NCBI GenBank assembly: GCA_900498135.1
Contig: LR026961.1
Location: forward strand, 3,899,215 to 3,963,214
Length of the DNA: 64,000 bases
DNA from: an uncultured Desulfatiglans sp.
Lineage (GTDB): Bacteria > Desulfobacterota > DSM-4660 > Desulfatiglandales > Desulfatiglandaceae
Direction: 5' to 3'
A program made the translations under genes and the position numbers. Of this stretch, positions 6,703 to 62,645 are shown piece by piece (position 1 is the stretch's first letter; each line of letters begins with the position of its first letter). A model generated the notes under the pieces. That model saw nothing but the letters and a program-made list of their open reading frames with translations, did no database searches and was not told the origin of the DNA.

Positions 6703-6792
6703 CCCGTTTTGGCACACCCCGCCCATGGCCGCCCCAACACGAAGGGAGAGAAATCGAAGGATTTTACCGCAGAAGCCGCTTCTACTATAATG

Positions 6793-6967
6793 TGTCCATC
6801 CGGAAATGATTTCGCGGTAGGACTAAGTTTCCAATCCGGAAATGAGGATTTTTGGCCAATATCAAGGAAATCAAGCGTTTGCGCGGAGGCGACCTGCAGG
6901 TCGCCGCACAAGCAAACGTGCAGATTGACGCCGAGATTGGCCAAAAAGACCATTTCCGGATGGAAAC
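6793..6967 (+). repeat. Palindromic MITE-like element, copy b (intact, 175 bp)
   Basis: This reference copy of the short form begins TGTCCATCCGGAAATG and ends with its inverted counterpart CATTTCCGGATGGAAAC. Nested inside are a second inverted pair (TTGGCCAAT/ATTGGCCAA), the CGTTTG/CAAACG pair and the central 18-bp palindrome GGCGACCTGCAGGTCGCC. The flanks TATAATG (6786-6792) and TAGAATG (6968-6974) match at 6 of 7 positions, consistent with a target duplication that has mutated. Confidence 0.9.
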
Positions 6968-22649: not shown

Positions 22650-22790
22650 TCCCACCGCTTCGTAGCGGATCCCGGTTTGGGCGATATCAAGGAAATCAAG
22701 CGTTTGCGCGGAGGCGACCTGCAGGTCGCCGCACAAGCGAACGTGCAGATTGACGCCGAGATGGGTCAAAAAGACCATTTCCCCGTAGAA
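22650..22790 (+). repeat. Palindromic element, copy g (long-form left module, tandem with h)
   Basis: This copy has the long-form module CCCACCGCTTCGTAGCGGATC before the core, then an intact core. The right arm is cut at CATTTCCCCGTAGAAA, which merges into the left arm of copy h. The pair therefore looks like a recombinant tandem dimer. Confidence 0.82.
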
Positions 22791-22935
22791 ACTCGTTTCC
22801 AATCCGGAAATGAGGATTTTTGGCCCATATCAAGGAAATCAAGCGTTTGCGCGGAGGCGACCTGCAGGTCGCCGCACAAGCAAACGTGCAGATTGACGCC
22901 GAGATGGGCCAAAAAGACCATTTCCGGATGGAAAC
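22791..22935 (+). repeat. Palindromic element, copy h (tandem with g)
   Basis: Nearly perfect inner unit, from GTTTCCAATCCGGAAATGAGG to CATTTCCGGATGGAAAC, with inner arms TTGGCCCAT and ATGGGCCAA: compensatory changes on both sides keep the pairing. It ends 35 bp before the start codon of the small gene at 22971. Confidence 0.88.
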
Positions 22936-44313: not shown

Positions 44314-44326
44314 GAATGCTAGGTTG

Positions 44327-44501
44327 TATCCATCCGGAAATGATTTCCCTATAGAACCCAGTTTCCAATCCGGAAATGAGGATTTTTGGCCAATATCAAG
44401 GAAATCAAGCGCTTGCGCGGAGGCAACCTAGTGGTCGCCGCACAAGCAAACGTGCAGATTGACGCCGAGATTGGCCAAAAAGACCATTTCCGGATGGAAA
44501 C
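44327..44501 (+). repeat. Palindromic element, copy k (intact, 175 bp)
   Basis: Same length and boundaries as copy b. The central palindrome is altered to GGCAACCTAGTGGTCGCC. Flanks TAGGTTG (44320-44326) and TAGATTT (44502-44508) share 5 of 7 bases, a possible decayed target duplication. The remaining 160 bp before prfB holds no other clear feature. Confidence 0.88.
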
Positions 44502-52034: not shown

Positions 52035-52382
52035 TCAGGGAAGTTCCACGCCCTCCTGATTAGGCACCGCCTCGCTGGTTACGGGGAGGTTCCGAAGGGT
52101 GTTCAACTCCTCATCCTTTTGCTTTCCCTGCCGAACCAGTGTCTTGATCTCCCTGCGAAGCCGGAAACGTTCGACCGCACCGTAGAGCCCGGCGATCAGA
52201 ATCCCGATCAGAAAGCTGATGACCGCTACGAAGTAAAGGGAGAGAGGGGCAGTCTGCCCGCTCCAGAATTTGAGATCCAGTTTGAACTGCACCTGCGTCG
52301 ACAGTGCCGGGTGATTCTGCACCGCCACGATGACAACCAGCAACAGAACGAGAATGATGATCAAGGCCCTCAGATGTTTCAT
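52035..52382 (-). CDS. lapA: LapA-domain (DUF1049) membrane protein
   Basis: The 115-aa protein has two transmembrane helices (LIIILVLLLVVIVAVQN; LYFVAVISFLIGILIAGLYG) and a cytosolic coiled coil (LRREIKTLVRQGKQKDEEL). This matches LapA, which works with LapB in lipopolysaccharide assembly control. It overlaps the HIT gene by 4 bp. Pairing with lapB 372 bp away supports the call. Confidence 0.88.
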   Translation of the reverse strand: MKHLRALIIILVLLLVVIVAVQNHPALSTQVQFKLDLKFWSGQTAPLSLYFVAVISFLIGILIAGLYGAVERFRLRREIKTLVRQGKQKDEELNTLRNLPVTSEAVPNQEGVELP

Positions 52383-52888
52383 ACCTCACCTCCTGCGGGG
52401 GTTTTCAAGCGGTTGAAATACGGCAGCAGCTTTTCATAAGTGGCCTGCAGGTGCTCCGGTATTACCCTCACTTCTCCAATCACGGTCATATAGTTGGTGT
52501 CTCCGTTCCATCTTGGCACGATATGGAAATGCATGTGCTCTTCGACACCAGCGCCCGCGACGCGACCCAGGTTGAGCCCGACATTGAATCCGTCGGGGTG
52601 CATCATCGTTCTGAGGATCCCCATCGTCGCGCGCACCATCTCCATAACCGCCAGCATTTCAGCCGGTTCGAGCCCGTCCAGATTCGGCACGTGCCGGACC
52701 GGCGCTACCAGCAAATGGCCGTTTACATACGGGTACTTGTTCATCAAAACGAGGACCGTCTGATCGACGTAGAGAATCAGCCGCTCCGCATCCATCGAAC
52801 GGTCCTCACCCGGGCAGAATATGCACCCCCTGTACTTGTCGTTCCCCAGAATATACGTCATCCGCCATGGCGCCCACAAGACATCCAT
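52379..52888 (-). CDS. HIT-family nucleotide hydrolase
   Basis: The 169-aa histidine-triad protein has catalytic HMHFHIVPRWNGD (HxHxH) and an upstream zinc-type motif CIFCPGEDR. The N-terminus MDVLWAPWRMTYI is typical of bacterial HIT/Ap4A-phosphorylase-like proteins. It would hydrolyse or transfer nucleoside phosphoramidates or dinucleotides in the cytosol. The start at 52888 follows GGGGGC. An upstream in-frame ATG (52930) lies in non-conserved sequence. Confidence 0.92.
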   Translation of the reverse strand: MDVLWAPWRMTYILGNDKYRGCIFCPGEDRSMDAERLILYVDQTVLVLMNKYPYVNGHLLVAPVRHVPNLDGLEPAEMLAVMEMVRATMGILRTMMHPDGFNVGLNLGRVAGAGVEEHMHFHIVPRWNGDTNYMTVIGEVRVIPEHLQATYEKLLPYFNRLKTPAGGEV

Positions 52889-52988
52889 AATGCCCCCTGA
52901 ACATTCGTTTCCCGGACTTTCGCCTCCCACTGCTCCCGCAGCGGAGAACAGAATCCTTCCTCTTCCGATCCAGAATAAGTGAGTGTAG

Positions 52989-53267
52989 TTTTCATCCGGA
53001 AATGATTTCCCGGTAGAACCCAGTTTCCAATCCAGAAATGAGGATTTTTCTTTACACGCTGCGCGTGCTCAGTCTCACCCTTGTGGGGCGGATCCCGGTT
53101 TCTCTACACGCTGCGCGTGCTCAGTACCACCCCTGCGGGGCGGGTCCCCGTTTGGCCAATATCAAGGAAATCAAGCATTTGCGCGGAGGCGTCCTGCAGG
53201 TCGCCGCACAAGCAAACATGCAGATTGACGCCGAGATTAGCCAAAAAGACCATTTACGGATGGAAAC
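52989..53267 (+). repeat. Palindromic element, copy l (long form, with exact 8-bp target duplication)
   Basis: A 279-bp copy flanked on both sides by GAGTGTAG (52981-52988 and 53268-53275), strong evidence of insertion by transposition. The ends are TTTTCATCCGGAAATG and CATTTACGGATGGAAAC. The left arm carries two tandem modules of about 52 bp (ACGCTGCGCGTGCTCAGT followed by a GGGGCGG-rich hairpin side), making this the clearest long form. 53276-53422 holds nothing else recognisable. Confidence 0.9.
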
Positions 53268-53422
53268 GAGTGTAGACCCGGCGCCTCTGTTGGGGCAACC
53301 TGAAGCCCAGGCGAAGCCGTTCCGGATTGTCCTCCGGGTCTGAGATCTCGCAAAGAACCAGGCAAAAGAGTATAACAAGCAAGGGAGAAAAGACAAGGTG
53401 AAATCTGGCGGCATCGAAACGG

Positions 53423-53644: not shown

Positions 53645-54133
53645 GTGCCGATCTATGAGTTTTACTGTCCCAAATGCCACATGATCTTCAACTTCTTCTC
53701 GCGAACCGTCGACACGGAGAAGCGCCCCGCCTGCCCCAGGTGCCGGACCCCGAACCTGGACCGGCGGATGTCCGTCTTCGCCTTTTCCCGCAATCGGCCG
53801 GAGGAAGAGGATACCCCCATGCCGGACCTCGATGAGGGCAAAATGGAACAGGCCATGGAAATGCTCGCCCGCGAAGTCGACCATGTGGATGAGGAGGATC
53901 CGCGCCAGGCTGCGGCTTTGATGCGAAAACTGAGCGACTTGACCGGCCTCAACCTCGGGCCGGGGATGGAAGAGGCCATCCGGCGCATGGAGGCGGGCGA
54001 AGACCCCGACCACATCGAGGCGGAGATGGGCGATCTTCTGGAGCAGGAAGACCCCTTTTCCTTCAAGGAAAAGGCCGCCCGGATCGTCCGGTCCCTCCCC
54101 CCCCGCGTGGACGAGACCCTTTACGATCTCTGA
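53645..54133 (+). CDS. FmdB-type zinc ribbon protein with C-terminal extension
   Basis: The 162-aa protein has an N-terminal FmdB zinc ribbon (MPIYEFYCPKCHMIFNFFSR, CPRCRTPNLDRRMSVF) and a roughly 100-residue acidic helical region (MLAREVDHVDEEDPRQAAAL, AEMGDLLEQEDPF) absent in the smaller FmdB at 10342. The GTG start at 53645 has GGAGGA 7 bases upstream. The longer frame back to 53423 would include promoter sequence. Function is unknown; the extension suggests a protein partner. Confidence 0.85.
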   Translation: MPIYEFYCPKCHMIFNFFSRTVDTEKRPACPRCRTPNLDRRMSVFAFSRNRPEEEDTPMPDLDEGKMEQAMEMLAREVDHVDEEDPRQAAALMRKLSDLTGLNLGPGMEEAIRRMEAGEDPDHIEAEMGDLLEQEDPFSFKEKAARIVRSLPPRVDETLYDL

Positions 54134-54973: not shown

Positions 54974-57169
54974 TCACTCCCCCGGCCTCTTCCGGGTCAA
55001 CCGACTGACAAGGTCGCTGTAACGCCTCTGGGTGCGGTCATTCCGGACCGCCATGGCAAGCGCCCTCCGGCTGCCGATCAGAATCGCCAGTTTGCGGCCG
55101 CGCGTCACCCCCGTGTAGATGAGATTGCGCTGAAGCATCATGTAGTGCTGGGTCAGCACCGGAAGGATAACGGCCGCATACTCGGAGCCCTGCGCCTTGT
55201 GGACGGAGACGGCATAGGCCAGCACGACCTCTTCGAGGTCCCTGAAATCGTACGTGACCTTCCGTCCGTCGTAAAGGATCCAGACCTCCTGATTCTCGCG
55301 GTCGATCCGTTCGATGAAGCCGAGGTCACCGTTGTAAACATCCCGGTCGTAGTCGTTCCGGATCTGCATGACTTTGTCCCCCACCCTCAGCGAGCGGCTG
55401 CCCCACACCAAGGTGTCGCCCCTCGGGTTGAGTGCGTTCTGCAGATTCAGGTTCAGATTGGATGCCCCGACAACTCCTTTGTGCATGGGGGTGAGCACCT
55501 GAATATCCTCCCGCCGGTCCAATCCGAAACGCTCCGGGATCCTTTTGCCAACCAGTTCGATGATCAGGCGCAGAACCTCTTCGGGTTCGTCCTGTTCGAT
55601 GAAATAGAAATCCTCGGGCACTCCCCTGCCCAGGTTTCTTACGGGCATCTGACCATCGTGGATCCGGTGGGCATTGACCACGATGAGGCTTCGGCTGGCC
55701 TGGCGGAAGATCTCCTTCAGCGTGATAACCTTGACCACCCCGGACTGGATCATTCCCTGAAGGGGATACCCGGGACCCACAGGCGGCAGTTGGAACATAT
55801 CCCCCACCAGGATGAGAGTGGCAGGAGGCGGAACCGCCTTCAGCAGGTGGTGCATCAGGACCAGGTCGATCATGGAGGCCTCGTCCACGATCAACAGATC
55901 GCAGTCCAGCGGGTTTTCCGCGTTCTTTTGAAACGCTCCCTTCCCCGGCGCAAACGAGAGCAGGCGGTGAATCGTTTTCGCCTCCATTCCCGTTGCCTCG
56001 GCAAGACGCTTCGCCGCCCTGCCCGTCGGCGCCGCCAGAAGGATCCGCGCCCCCTTGCGGGTGAAGATCTTGACGATCGCGTTGATGATGGTGGTCTTTC
56101 CGGTTCCCGGTCCGCCGGTGATAATCAACAAAGGGTTCAGCAGGGCCGCCCGCACTGCTTCCCGCTGCTTTTCGGCCAATGTGATGCCCGCGAGTTTCGC
56201 TTCTACCCACTCGAGGGCCTTGCCCGGATCCACCCCGCGCCAGGGCCTCTCCCCGCAGGTGAATTCCAGGATTCGCCTCGAAACCGCCGTCTCGCAGAAA
56301 TGAAGCGCCGCCGGATAAACCTTGCTATCCGCCTTCTGAAGCCATCCCCCCTCCTCGCTGTCCTCATCGATGACAATCTGTTTTTCGCCGACCGCTCCAA
56401 CCAGCGCCCGGTCGAGAATCTCATCCTGGACCCCCAGGATCTCGCGGCACTTATCCATCAACGCACCCAGCGGATAGTAAACGTGCCCTTCCTCCGAGGC
56501 CTTCTGAAGCACATACACGATCCCCGCCTGCGCCCGCAGCGTGGAATCCCTGCCAAACCCGAGCTTTTCGGCGATCCGGTCGGCCGTGATGAACCCGATT
56601 CCAGTTATGTCCGTCGCAAGCCGATAGGGATTCTCTTCGATCACCTGTACAGCGCGTCCGCCGTAGGCCTTCCAGATCCGGGTGGCATAGGCGCTGCTCA
56701 CCCCATGCTCCTGGAGGAAGATCATGACCTGCCGGATTTCCTTCTGGTCGTTCCAGGCACGCCGGATCATCTCGATCCGCTTCGGGCCGATCCCCGGAAC
56801 CGCAGCTAGCCGCCCGGCATCCTGATCGATCACCTCCAGCGTTTTTTCTCCATGGACGTTTACGATCCGCTTGGCCATAACCGGGCCGATGCCCTTGATC
56901 AGTCCGGACCCCAGGTACCGCTCGATGCCGTAGACCGTCGCCGGCGTATGGGTGCTGTAGTACTCGACCTTGAACTGGCGGCCATAACGCGGGTGATTGC
57001 CCCAAGCCCCCCTCATCTTGAGGATCTCCCCGGGGGTCGGCGCCATCAGATTCCCTACGACGGTCACGAGTTCCCGTTCTCCGCGCACACTCATCTGCAC
57101 GACCGAATACCCGCTCTCCGCGTTCGAATAGGTGACCCGCTCGATCCTGCCCTGAAGTTCACACGCCAT
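54974..57169 (-). CDS. recD2: ATP-dependent 5'-3' DNA helicase RecD2
   Basis: The 731-aa RecD2-type SF1B helicase has an N-terminal OB-like region (MACELQGRIERVTYSNAESG), tandem HhH region (YLGSGLIKGIGPVMAKRIV; LAAVPGIGPKRIEMIR), then helicase motifs I (TGGPGTGKTTIINAI), II (LIVDEASMIDL), III (LILVGDMFQLPP), V/VI (AYAVSVHKAQGSEYAAVILP; YTGVTRGRKLA). It unwinds DNA 5'-3' in repair, independent of RecBC. ATG 57169 has AAGGGGA upstream; the longer frame to 57343 includes a decayed repeat copy and is rejected. Confidence 0.95.
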   Translation of the reverse strand: MACELQGRIERVTYSNAESGYSVVQMSVRGERELVTVVGNLMAPTPGEILKMRGAWGNHPRYGRQFKVEYYSTHTPATVYGIERYLGSGLIKGIGPVMAKRIVNVHGEKTLEVIDQDAGRLAAVPGIGPKRIEMIRRAWNDQKEIRQVMIFLQEHGVSSAYATRIWKAYGGRAVQVIEENPYRLATDITGIGFITADRIAEKLGFGRDSTLRAQAGIVYVLQKASEEGHVYYPLGALMDKCREILGVQDEILDRALVGAVGEKQIVIDEDSEEGGWLQKADSKVYPAALHFCETAVSRRILEFTCGERPWRGVDPGKALEWVEAKLAGITLAEKQREAVRAALLNPLLIITGGPGTGKTTIINAIVKIFTRKGARILLAAPTGRAAKRLAEATGMEAKTIHRLLSFAPGKGAFQKNAENPLDCDLLIVDEASMIDLVLMHHLLKAVPPPATLILVGDMFQLPPVGPGYPLQGMIQSGVVKVITLKEIFRQASRSLIVVNAHRIHDGQMPVRNLGRGVPEDFYFIEQDEPEEVLRLIIELVGKRIPERFGLDRREDIQVLTPMHKGVVGASNLNLNLQNALNPRGDTLVWGSRSLRVGDKVMQIRNDYDRDVYNGDLGFIERIDRENQEVWILYDGRKVTYDFRDLEEVVLAYAVSVHKAQGSEYAAVILPVLTQHYMMLQRNLIYTGVTRGRKLAILIGSRRALAMAVRNDRTQRRYSDLVSRLTRKRPGE

Positions 57170-57257
57170 CCGGGCTCCCCTTCCCGTCCTTCCCATTCCA
57201 ACCGCGCCGGCTGGAGCGCAGCAAACCCCGTCGCGGCCGGCCTCTTTGCTGACTGCC

Positions 57258-57372
57258 TTCCACCCTGAGAGGCTTTTTTCGCCGATTTCGGCGTCCATCT
57301 GCACCGTTGCCCGTGCGGCGGTCTGCAGGGCGCCTCCCAGCAAACGACGGCCGGTTTCTCGATAGCAGCGAA
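57258..57372 (-). repeat. Palindromic element, copy m (degenerate)
   Basis: Inverted orientation with strong decay: CGCCGATTTCGGCGTCCATCTG, TGCCCGTGCGGCGGTCTGCAG and CAGCAAACGACGG still align with the core. It lies just upstream of recD2. The rest of 57170-57614 holds only the HU terminator. Confidence 0.6.
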
Positions 57373-59900: not shown

Positions 59901-60075
59901 GTTTCCATCCGGAAATGGTCTTTTTGGCCAATCTCGGCGTCAATCTGCACGTTTGTTTGTGCGGCGACCTGCAGGTCGCCTCCGCGCAAACGCTTGATCT
60001 CCTTGATATTGGCCAAAAATCCTCATTTCCGGATGGGAAACTGGATTCTACCGGGAAATCATTTCCGGATGGACA
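59901..60075 (-). repeat. Palindromic element, copy n (intact 175 bp, 7-bp target duplication)
   Basis: Inverted orientation, GTTTCCATCC to GGATGGACA, flanked by CTACACA on both sides (59894-59900 and 60076-60082). The core has a perfect 18-bp palindrome. A weak promoter-like TTGACA (59868 region) precedes it. 59493-59893 is otherwise without a gene I can support. Confidence 0.9.
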
Positions 60076-60085
60076 CTACACATAA

Positions 60086-60762: not shown

Positions 60763-62645
60763 ATCGGGTAGGAGGCGGGGTTGCCCCCGCCGTCCTCCCA
60801 CACCACCGGGCATACGGTTCCGTACCACGGCGGTTCATGAATTACCTTGAAACTGCTTCACGAGACCGAGCAGCGACACGAGTCCGAGCTTTGTGAAGAA
60901 GCGCGCTGGTAAGGCCTCGTTCATATGAGACGCGCCCGAATTCCACCAGGGACCTCGTCCATTCGTGGCGGATCTCCAGGCTCTTTCCTCACTCAGCCCT
61001 TGGTGCACCAGGTTCTTGGCCCGGGTGAAAGAACGTTTCCATTGACGCCAGAGGATGCATCGGAGTTTCCGCCGAATCCATCCATCGAGGTCCTCGAATA
61101 CGCTCTTGGTCTCCGCCAACCGGAAGTAGTTGGCCCATCCCGACAAAACCGGTTTAAGTTCTCCGATCACGCCTGAGAGCGAGCGGCCTCTTCCCCGCCG
61201 GAGGATCTGCCTGAGTTTTCCCTGCAGACGTTTGACGCTGGCCGCAGCTGCTTTCAGCCGAGGCCGTTGGTGCCACGTCATGCTATAGCCCAGGAATTTC
61301 CGCCGCCAAGGTCGATCTACGGCGCTCTTCTCCTGGTTGACCGAGAGCTTCAGTCGATTTCCCAGAAAACGAGTCAACGAGGCCAGTACCCGCTCGCCCG
61401 CCCGCCTGGACCGAACATAAATGTTACAGTCATCCGCGTACCGGCAGAACTTATGGCCCCTTCGTTCCAGTTCCCTGTCCAGATCATTCAAAAGGATGTT
61501 GGACAGCAGCGGAGACAGCGGACCGCCTTGGGGCGTGCCTTGCACGCGCTGAGAGACAAGACCGCCGGCCATCAGACCCGCCGTAAGATAGCGGCGGATC
61601 AGGACTAATACCCGTTTATCCTTGATCCTCCTAGCCACCCGCGCCATGAGCACGTCATGGTTGACTCGGTCAAAGAACTTCTCCAAATCCATGTCCACCA
61701 CCCACCTTCGCCCTTGAGCCGCGTATTCGCGGGCTTGCCGGACTGCTTGGTGAGCGCTCCGCCCAGGGCGGAATCCATAACTATACTCGGAGAAGTTCGG
61801 ATCAAAGATCGGCTGCAAAACCTGGTTCAGCGCCTGCTGGATCAACCGGTCCGTGACCGTGGGTATGCCCAGTTGCCGCATCCCTTTTCCACCCGGCTTG
61901 GGGATATCAACCCTAAGCACCGGCTGAGGCACGTACCGTCCCTCCAATAGTTGCTTCCGAATACACGGCCATTCAACCGCAAGATGTTCCTTGAGATTTT
62001 CGACCGTCAGGCCGTCCACCCCGGGAGCACCCTTGTTCGCCCTGACTCGGCGATAGGCCGCCAACATGTTCTCGCGTTCGACTACTGCTTCCATCAAATG
62101 AAGAGTCTTCGCCTGGGAGTGCTCCGTCTTTGCCGTGACCTTTGACGCACCAGGCCCATGCTCTGGCGGATTCCGTCCGCTACCCTCCGGGCTGGCGACG
62201 GTCGTTTCAGACCGCCCTTCTGCTTCTCCATTTGTCATCGAAATTCCGGCTCCCATGCCGTAATTCATGTTCGGGCCTTCAGCCAAGTCGAACGGCCTAC
62301 TATGCCCTCGGCTGACTTCCGCCGACCCATCCCGGCACCTCTCGGTGCCGGTAGCACATGGCAGATCGACGGATCTCCCCGGGTAATGCGCACCGACCTT
62401 CACGCTTATGCCCGCCGCATATACGTCCATGCTTTCCGTACAGGTATCGGACTTTGAAGATATTTGCCTCCTCATCCAGCATGACCGCCTCATATGCAGT
62501 TCCTGTTCGTCGGGCCAGCGCTTTGCCTGCGGCTTCCTTCAGATCCCGTCTTACGACGGGCACCCTTGCCGTCCGGCTAACACTTCCCCCCGTCGGGCGT
62601 GCAGAGGACTTTCACCTCCAAGTCAGTGCGCCCTGCCGGGCGCAC
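60763..62645 (-). mobile_element. Group II intron with encoded reverse transcriptase
   Basis: The 5' end on the minus strand is GTGCGCCCGGCAGGGCG (62645 downward), matching the GTGCG consensus. The 3' part has a domain V-like hairpin (GAACCGCCGTGGTACGGAAC, GTATGCCCGGTGGTGTGGG) and domain VI ending CTCCTACCCGAT at 60763. Total about 1,883 nt. The 5' exon is the T-rich tail of the HesB terminator; the 3' exon borders the two-module gene's stop. Ends are set by motif, not by alignment. Confidence 0.85.
60835..62268 (-). CDS. ltrA: Group II intron reverse transcriptase/maturase
   Basis: The 477-aa protein has RT blocks including VRANKGAPGVDGLTVEN, RQLGIPTVTDRLIQQAL, YSYGFRPGRSAHQAVRQA, GTPQGGPLSPLLSNILL and the catalytic YADD in KFCRYADDCNIYV, followed by a maturase (X) domain with VLSGWANYFRLAETKSVFED. 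No HNH endonuclease cysteines are seen at the C-terminus, so retrohoming would not use second-strand cleavage by an En domain. ATG 62268 follows AAGG; ATG 62238 is an alternative. The frame is open throughout, so the intron may be active. Confidence 0.93.
   Translation of the reverse strand: MNYGMGAGISMTNGEAEGRSETTVASPEGSGRNPPEHGPGASKVTAKTEHSQAKTLHLMEAVVERENMLAAYRRVRANKGAPGVDGLTVENLKEHLAVEWPCIRKQLLEGRYVPQPVLRVDIPKPGGKGMRQLGIPTVTDRLIQQALNQVLQPIFDPNFSEYSYGFRPGRSAHQAVRQAREYAAQGRRWVVDMDLEKFFDRVNHDVLMARVARRIKDKRVLVLIRRYLTAGLMAGGLVSQRVQGTPQGGPLSPLLSNILLNDLDRELERRGHKFCRYADDCNIYVRSRRAGERVLASLTRFLGNRLKLSVNQEKSAVDRPWRRKFLGYSMTWHQRPRLKAAAASVKRLQGKLRQILRRGRGRSLSGVIGELKPVLSGWANYFRLAETKSVFEDLDGWIRRKLRCILWRQWKRSFTRAKNLVHQGLSEERAWRSATNGRGPWWNSGASHMNEALPARFFTKLGLVSLLGLVKQFQGNS

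Follow-up and report, generated by a model that had tools for sequence, protein, structure and literature searches.

Several high-copy MITEs have been described in bacteria. In the accessible part of one report, the Chunjie MITE of Geobacter uraniireducens measures 178-235 bp and is present as 38 conserved and 57 partial copies, and 711 ERIC elements are counted in Photorhabdus (PMC10969869). The BrickBuilt MITE of Porphyromonas gingivalis, in the accessible part of its description, occurs in 19 copies and carries a tandem 23-bp repeat inside the element (PMC4596501). In the available excerpts of two further papers, a MITE is ascribed to a transposase of the ISL3 type, not of ISNCY (PMC11448079), and ISDol1 is only named as a subfamily (PMC8147514). 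In the excerpted open-licence literature we found no MITE whose movement is ascribed to ISNCY.

The element at issue here, copy l, belongs to a family that can be likened to these systems by description. As with Chunjie, its members are short MITEs with many partial copies, here amounting to hundreds of element ends; as with BrickBuilt, there is a tandem repeat within the MITE, here a 52-bp module present 0, 1 or 2 times; and as with ERIC, Correia and similar high-copy bacterial MITEs, there are hundreds of copies. The ends and the duplication of ERIC and Correia elements are expected to differ from those of the copy l family. Within the ISNCY family, elements of the ISDol1 group have ends that start with GTT and make a 6-7-bp duplication. 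As this group is generally described, the likeness to it lies in a transposase that scores over the cut-off, GTT ends and a duplication of 6-7 bp, and the difference is that copy l is a short non-coding derivative and not an IS. The copy l family is a MITE with a probable parent IS, a kind already known; the case is an ordinary one, though its documentation is unusually good. The combination of a high-copy MITE, a candidate parent IS, empty sister sites and a target rule makes a clean natural system, suited to asking how an ISNCY-type transposase picks its targets and how few IS copies sustain hundreds of MITEs.

Copy l and its empty site in a sister genome

Copy l is a 280-bp non-coding MITE of the two-module class (176 + 2 x 52 bp), located on the plus strand at positions 52988-53267 of the window, by which we mean the whole stretch of 64,000 nucleotides that was analysed. 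It is flanked by two genes that read away from it, a HIT-domain gene on the minus strand (52379-52888; PF01230, 1e-14) and an FmdB-type zinc-ribbon gene on the plus strand (53645-54133; PF09723, 1.4e-9), both recognised from their domain matches and open reading frames. The left terminal inverted repeat is GTTTTCATCCGGAAATG (52988-53004, plus strand), to be compared with the IS end GTTTCCATCCGGAAA described below, and the right one is CATTTACGGATGGAAAC (53251-53267, minus strand). Between them lie an inner left repeat of the TTTCCAATCC type that is complementary to the right end (53024-53049, plus strand), two successive 52-bp modules (53054-53105 and 53106-53157, plus strand), each containing two short hairpins, and a central palindrome (53181-53207). 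The element as a whole is strongly palindromic, folding with z -1.9 in copy l and z -10.3 in the related copy b.

The source genome (G000) is a single contig of 4.80 Mb, and it was compared with that of a sister species in the same genus (G001). When 7 kb centred on the copy l locus were used as query, G001 aligned in two blocks that overlap by 8 G001 bases exactly at the position of the element, the flanks being 93-94% identical. G001 reads ...CCAGGATAAGGGAGTGCAGACCCGGCGCC... where the window reads ...CCAGAATAAGTGAGTGTAG[element]GAGTGTAGACCCGGCGCC.... The first-pass annotation had taken an exact 8-bp repeat bordering copy l as direct evidence of insertion and had predicted a single GAGTGTAG in a relative that lacks the element. 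The repeat is indeed present at 52981-52988 and at 53268-53275, and in G001 the flanks are contiguous and contain a single GAGTGCAG, which differs by one substitution, while the element is absent; neither of the contrary outcomes that it had named, both repeats without the element or a different spacing, was seen there. The G001 site, free of the element and with one target copy, thus supports the reading of copy l as an insertion. Since G001 has the same surrounding DNA without copy l, the element is not required at this place.

We conclude from these sequence comparisons that copy l is very probably a non-autonomous MITE that entered the space between the diverging HIT-domain and FmdB-type genes once the lineage had separated from G001, made a 7-bp duplication and was presumably moved by an ISNCY transposase. 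The sister site is contiguous and empty, the direct repeats are in place, and the inverted ends are common to hundreds of copies.

Size of the family, duplication length and target

Allowing up to 3 mismatches, the right end GACCATTTCCGGATGGAAAC has 430 matches genome-wide and the left end 473, against 0 and 2 for the respective reversed-pattern controls. The copies fall into length classes of 176, 228 and 280 bp that have their inverted ends in common and differ by the number of 52-bp modules. Mean pairwise identity is 92% for the 176-bp class (n=34), 88% for the 228-bp class (n=12) and 85% for the 280-bp class (n=12), so that the short class looks youngest. Being short, non-coding, bounded by terminal inverted repeats and present in many copies, the family has the features of a MITE, and the target duplication expected of one is present as well, both in the flanks of the copies and at empty G001 sites. 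In the fetched loci, 76 of the 78 module-like matches adjoin element motifs. The module hairpins come in two pairing versions, CACGC-GCGTG and CACCC-GGGTG, and of the 78 matches 37 have GC and 33 have CG as the variable pair; the structure may be conserved, or the versions may simply descend from two old lineages.

All statistics on the flanks are based on 71 copies, obtained by pairing the outer ends of elements across 247 kb of fetched sequence. The stretches sampled were 60 chosen because their right end matched well (0-1 mismatches) and a further 29 loci similar to copy l; selection by the right end enriches C at the right border, and the left border is unselected. An earlier pairing rule, which gave 96 copies, took the inner repeat as the left end and was replaced by the outer-end rule. 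For the chance model, left and right flanks of different copies were paired at random. Exact runs of at least 6 bp were found in 22 of the 71 copies versus 3.7% of shuffled pairs, runs of at least 7 bp in 18 versus 0.98%, and runs of at least 8 bp in 13 versus 0.39%, bearing out the first-pass view that a chance match at the element borders is improbable. Some runs are lengthened by adjoining element copies (e.g. 898072 and 3073375), and the shuffled pairs hold the same sequences. An exact run of 6 bp is lacking in 49 of the 71 copies, so many are old, rearranged or mis-paired.

Comparison of all left with all right flank positions revealed one raised diagonal of six positions with 51-58% matches, and base composition on both sides gave the palindromic target consensus CTARYTAG. 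The innermost left-flank base is G in 82% of copies, whereas its counterpart outside the right-hand copy is G in 45%. Since the left G is far more constant, it belongs to the element, as does, by symmetry, the right C. In agreement with this, at empty G001 sites the target continues with A at copy 2359455 and with T at copy k, where the element starts with G. Judged from the flanks and the empty sites, the duplication of the family is mostly 6 bp and sometimes 7 bp, and copy l is of the 7-bp kind.

For copy l the left duplication is GAGTGTA at 52981-52987 (a single GAGTGCA in G001), as delimited by the analysis of flank frames, and the right duplication is GAGTGTA at 53268-53274, as delimited by the comparison with G001. 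A G at 52988 extends the left match and a G at 53275 extends the right one; by the family rule, the former is the first base of the element. Two details of the first-pass annotation had to be revised accordingly: its 8-bp duplication becomes, by family-wide flank alignment, the 7-bp GAGTGTA plus a coincident G, and its 279-bp element becomes one of 280 bp with the outermost G...C inside and the left end one base further out. If copy l were considered by itself, an 8-bp duplication around an element shorter by one base would also be a possible reading. A further idea, which we regard as doubtful, is that the family targets itself: the C and G around the favoured CTARYTAG target would come from the element ends, so that insertion would rebuild the target at its borders, and new copies settling next to old ones would give rise to local arrays spaced by 6 bp, and the 52-bp modules would be a structurally maintained passenger and not debris.

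A candidate parent insertion sequence

A profile search of the source genome with NCBIfam NF033593 (transpos_ISNCY_1) returned three loci, all above the cut-off. They represent three copies of an IS of 1,693-1,698 bp whose pairwise similarity ends at GTTTCCATCCGGAAA...TTTCCGGATRGAAAC; the left end GTTTCCATCCGGAAA is identical in all three, and the right end differs from it at no more than one position. The reading frame is intact in two copies (455 aa) and contains one in-frame TGA in the third. Against NF033593 the 455-aa proteins score 438.9 and 445.8 bits (cut-off 325), and the domains found are DUF772 and DDE_Tnp_1. Searching named genomes with an alignment of the transposase gave only two loci, and those relatives that bear a name are MAGs with the labels Desulfobacterales and Desulfobacteraceae. 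TAAATA stands on both sides of IS copy L126, and copies L125 and L127 have no matching duplication at their flanks, which weakens the case for this IS as the mover of the MITE. In a relative (G016), an IS of the same family has the ends GTGTCCATCC...GGATGCACAC with TAATTA on both sides, and its sequence is also found in the Desulfobacterales MAG NIOZ-UU19 (L156). We take this IS, with its NF033593 transposase, as a putative member of the ISDol1 group of the ISNCY family, and the traits by which this group is usually defined are found here, namely GTTTCC ends, TAAATA at one of the three IS copies and TAATTA in G016.

The resident IS agrees with the MITE in terminal sequence and target type, and one of its copies also agrees in the length of the duplication. 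This ISNCY-family IS is likely the parent and mover of the MITE, and we propose with fair confidence that copy l arose by MITE insertion, most likely through an ISNCY-type transposase. In such a mechanism, the ISNCY-family DDE transposase would bind MITE ends of the GTTTCCATCCGGAAA type, cut there and join them to a CTARYTAG-like target opened by a cut staggered by 6-7 bp, and gap repair by the host would leave the direct repeats. Judged from the ISNCY_1 loci of the genome, it is unlikely that another transposase, for example of the IS5 or IS1182 type, moves the copies and that their ends resemble those of the ISNCY element by coincidence or secondarily. The IS transposase does also match IS5-type (118-124 bits) and IS1182 (85-90 bits) profiles, but far below their cut-offs, whereas the ends of the IS match the GTTTCCATCCGGAAA-type ends of the MITE and are accompanied by the same 6-bp duplication and the same TA-rich target.

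Across 61 genomes from the same genus, family and order (the source genome included), 26 have MITE matches but only 4 an ISNCY_1 transposase over the cut-off, and the MITEs of several relatives have the same kind of duplication (TAGATTA, TAACTG, TAGCTC). Draft genomes often lack IS copies; no ISNCY_1 transposase over the cut-off was found in the MITE-rich G001, most of the 61 genomes being drafts from which the IS may be missing. A link between MITE and IS is not shown by co-occurrence across these 61 genomes. A plasmid collection searched with the 176-bp element gave no match.

Other insertion sites and the age of the family

Three other window copies, each of 176 bp, had also drawn attention in the first-pass annotation for their borders. 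The imperfect repeats that it reported at copies b (6792-6967, plus strand) and k (44326-44501, plus strand) are there, TATAATG/TAGAATG at the former and a 6-bp duplication TAGGTT/TAGATT at the latter. G001 lacks the element at both sites, the empty k site reading TCGGTT. Copy n (59901-60076, minus strand) has CTACACA on both sides, as described; the duplication proper is TACACA, and the preceding C coincides with the terminal C of the element; the corresponding G001 site holds an unrelated insertion and a contig end. By eye, the reading frame of that insertion (G001:C5 near 230,620, L064) looks like an IS110-type transposase. Several further window copies are common to G001.

Outside the window, 24 copies drawn at random from 43 eligible ones were compared with G001, where 6 sites are empty, 6 are occupied between both flanks and 9 are unassignable. 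At 3197522 a different short remnant lies between CACCTAG repeats, at 2361211 the insert is larger and contains an oppositely oriented element match, and at 558577 one flank is found together with the element. A duplication of 6 or 7 bp fits five of the six empty junctions (TATTCTA, TATCTA, GATTTA, GAATTC and AGTTTA), and at 501438 only a 2-bp overlap fits. The presence of both occupied and empty sites in G001 indicates that the family arose before the split and was active once the two species had separated, unless G001 repeatedly suffered precise loss.

Applied to copy l, such a loss would mean that the element was ancestral at the site and was removed precisely from G001, by excision or by recombination between the direct repeats. 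Precise loss would leave a single target copy, as G001 has, and the sites occupied in both species (6 of 24) make the family older than the split. We nevertheless consider this history very improbable, since precise loss would be needed at l, b and k and at most of the six further sites, and the two repeats at copy l have not diverged from one another, as is typical of a young insertion. A non-transposable palindromic repeat of the REP/BIME kind with a coincident 8-bp match can practically be dismissed, since the strong palindrome and the tandem arrays that would suit it are contradicted by the empty G001 sites and the family-wide duplication signal. Post-split insertion of a MITE is thus retained as the reading of copy l.

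The comparison also yielded some minor observations. At G000:C1:3197522 and L163, the two species have different element insertions a few bases apart at one site, which suggests an insertion hot spot. Partial elements repeated in tandem about every 142 bp occur at window positions 22676-22935 and at G000:C1:3015755-3016449, and G001 apparently has a single unit at the position of the former. Adjoining elements exactly 6 bp apart, with the duplication as spacer, were seen at G000:C1:898072/898253 (tatctc) and 1302068/1302301 (gaccta), and these pairs look as if one element had inserted at the border of the other. The longest frame of a RecD2-type helicase (54974-57343, minus strand) begins within an element remnant (57256-57343), so its true start may be further in. 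Finally, domains D1-D4 of a group II intron (Rfam RF02001, RF01998) were recognised on the minus strand at window positions 62274-62560.
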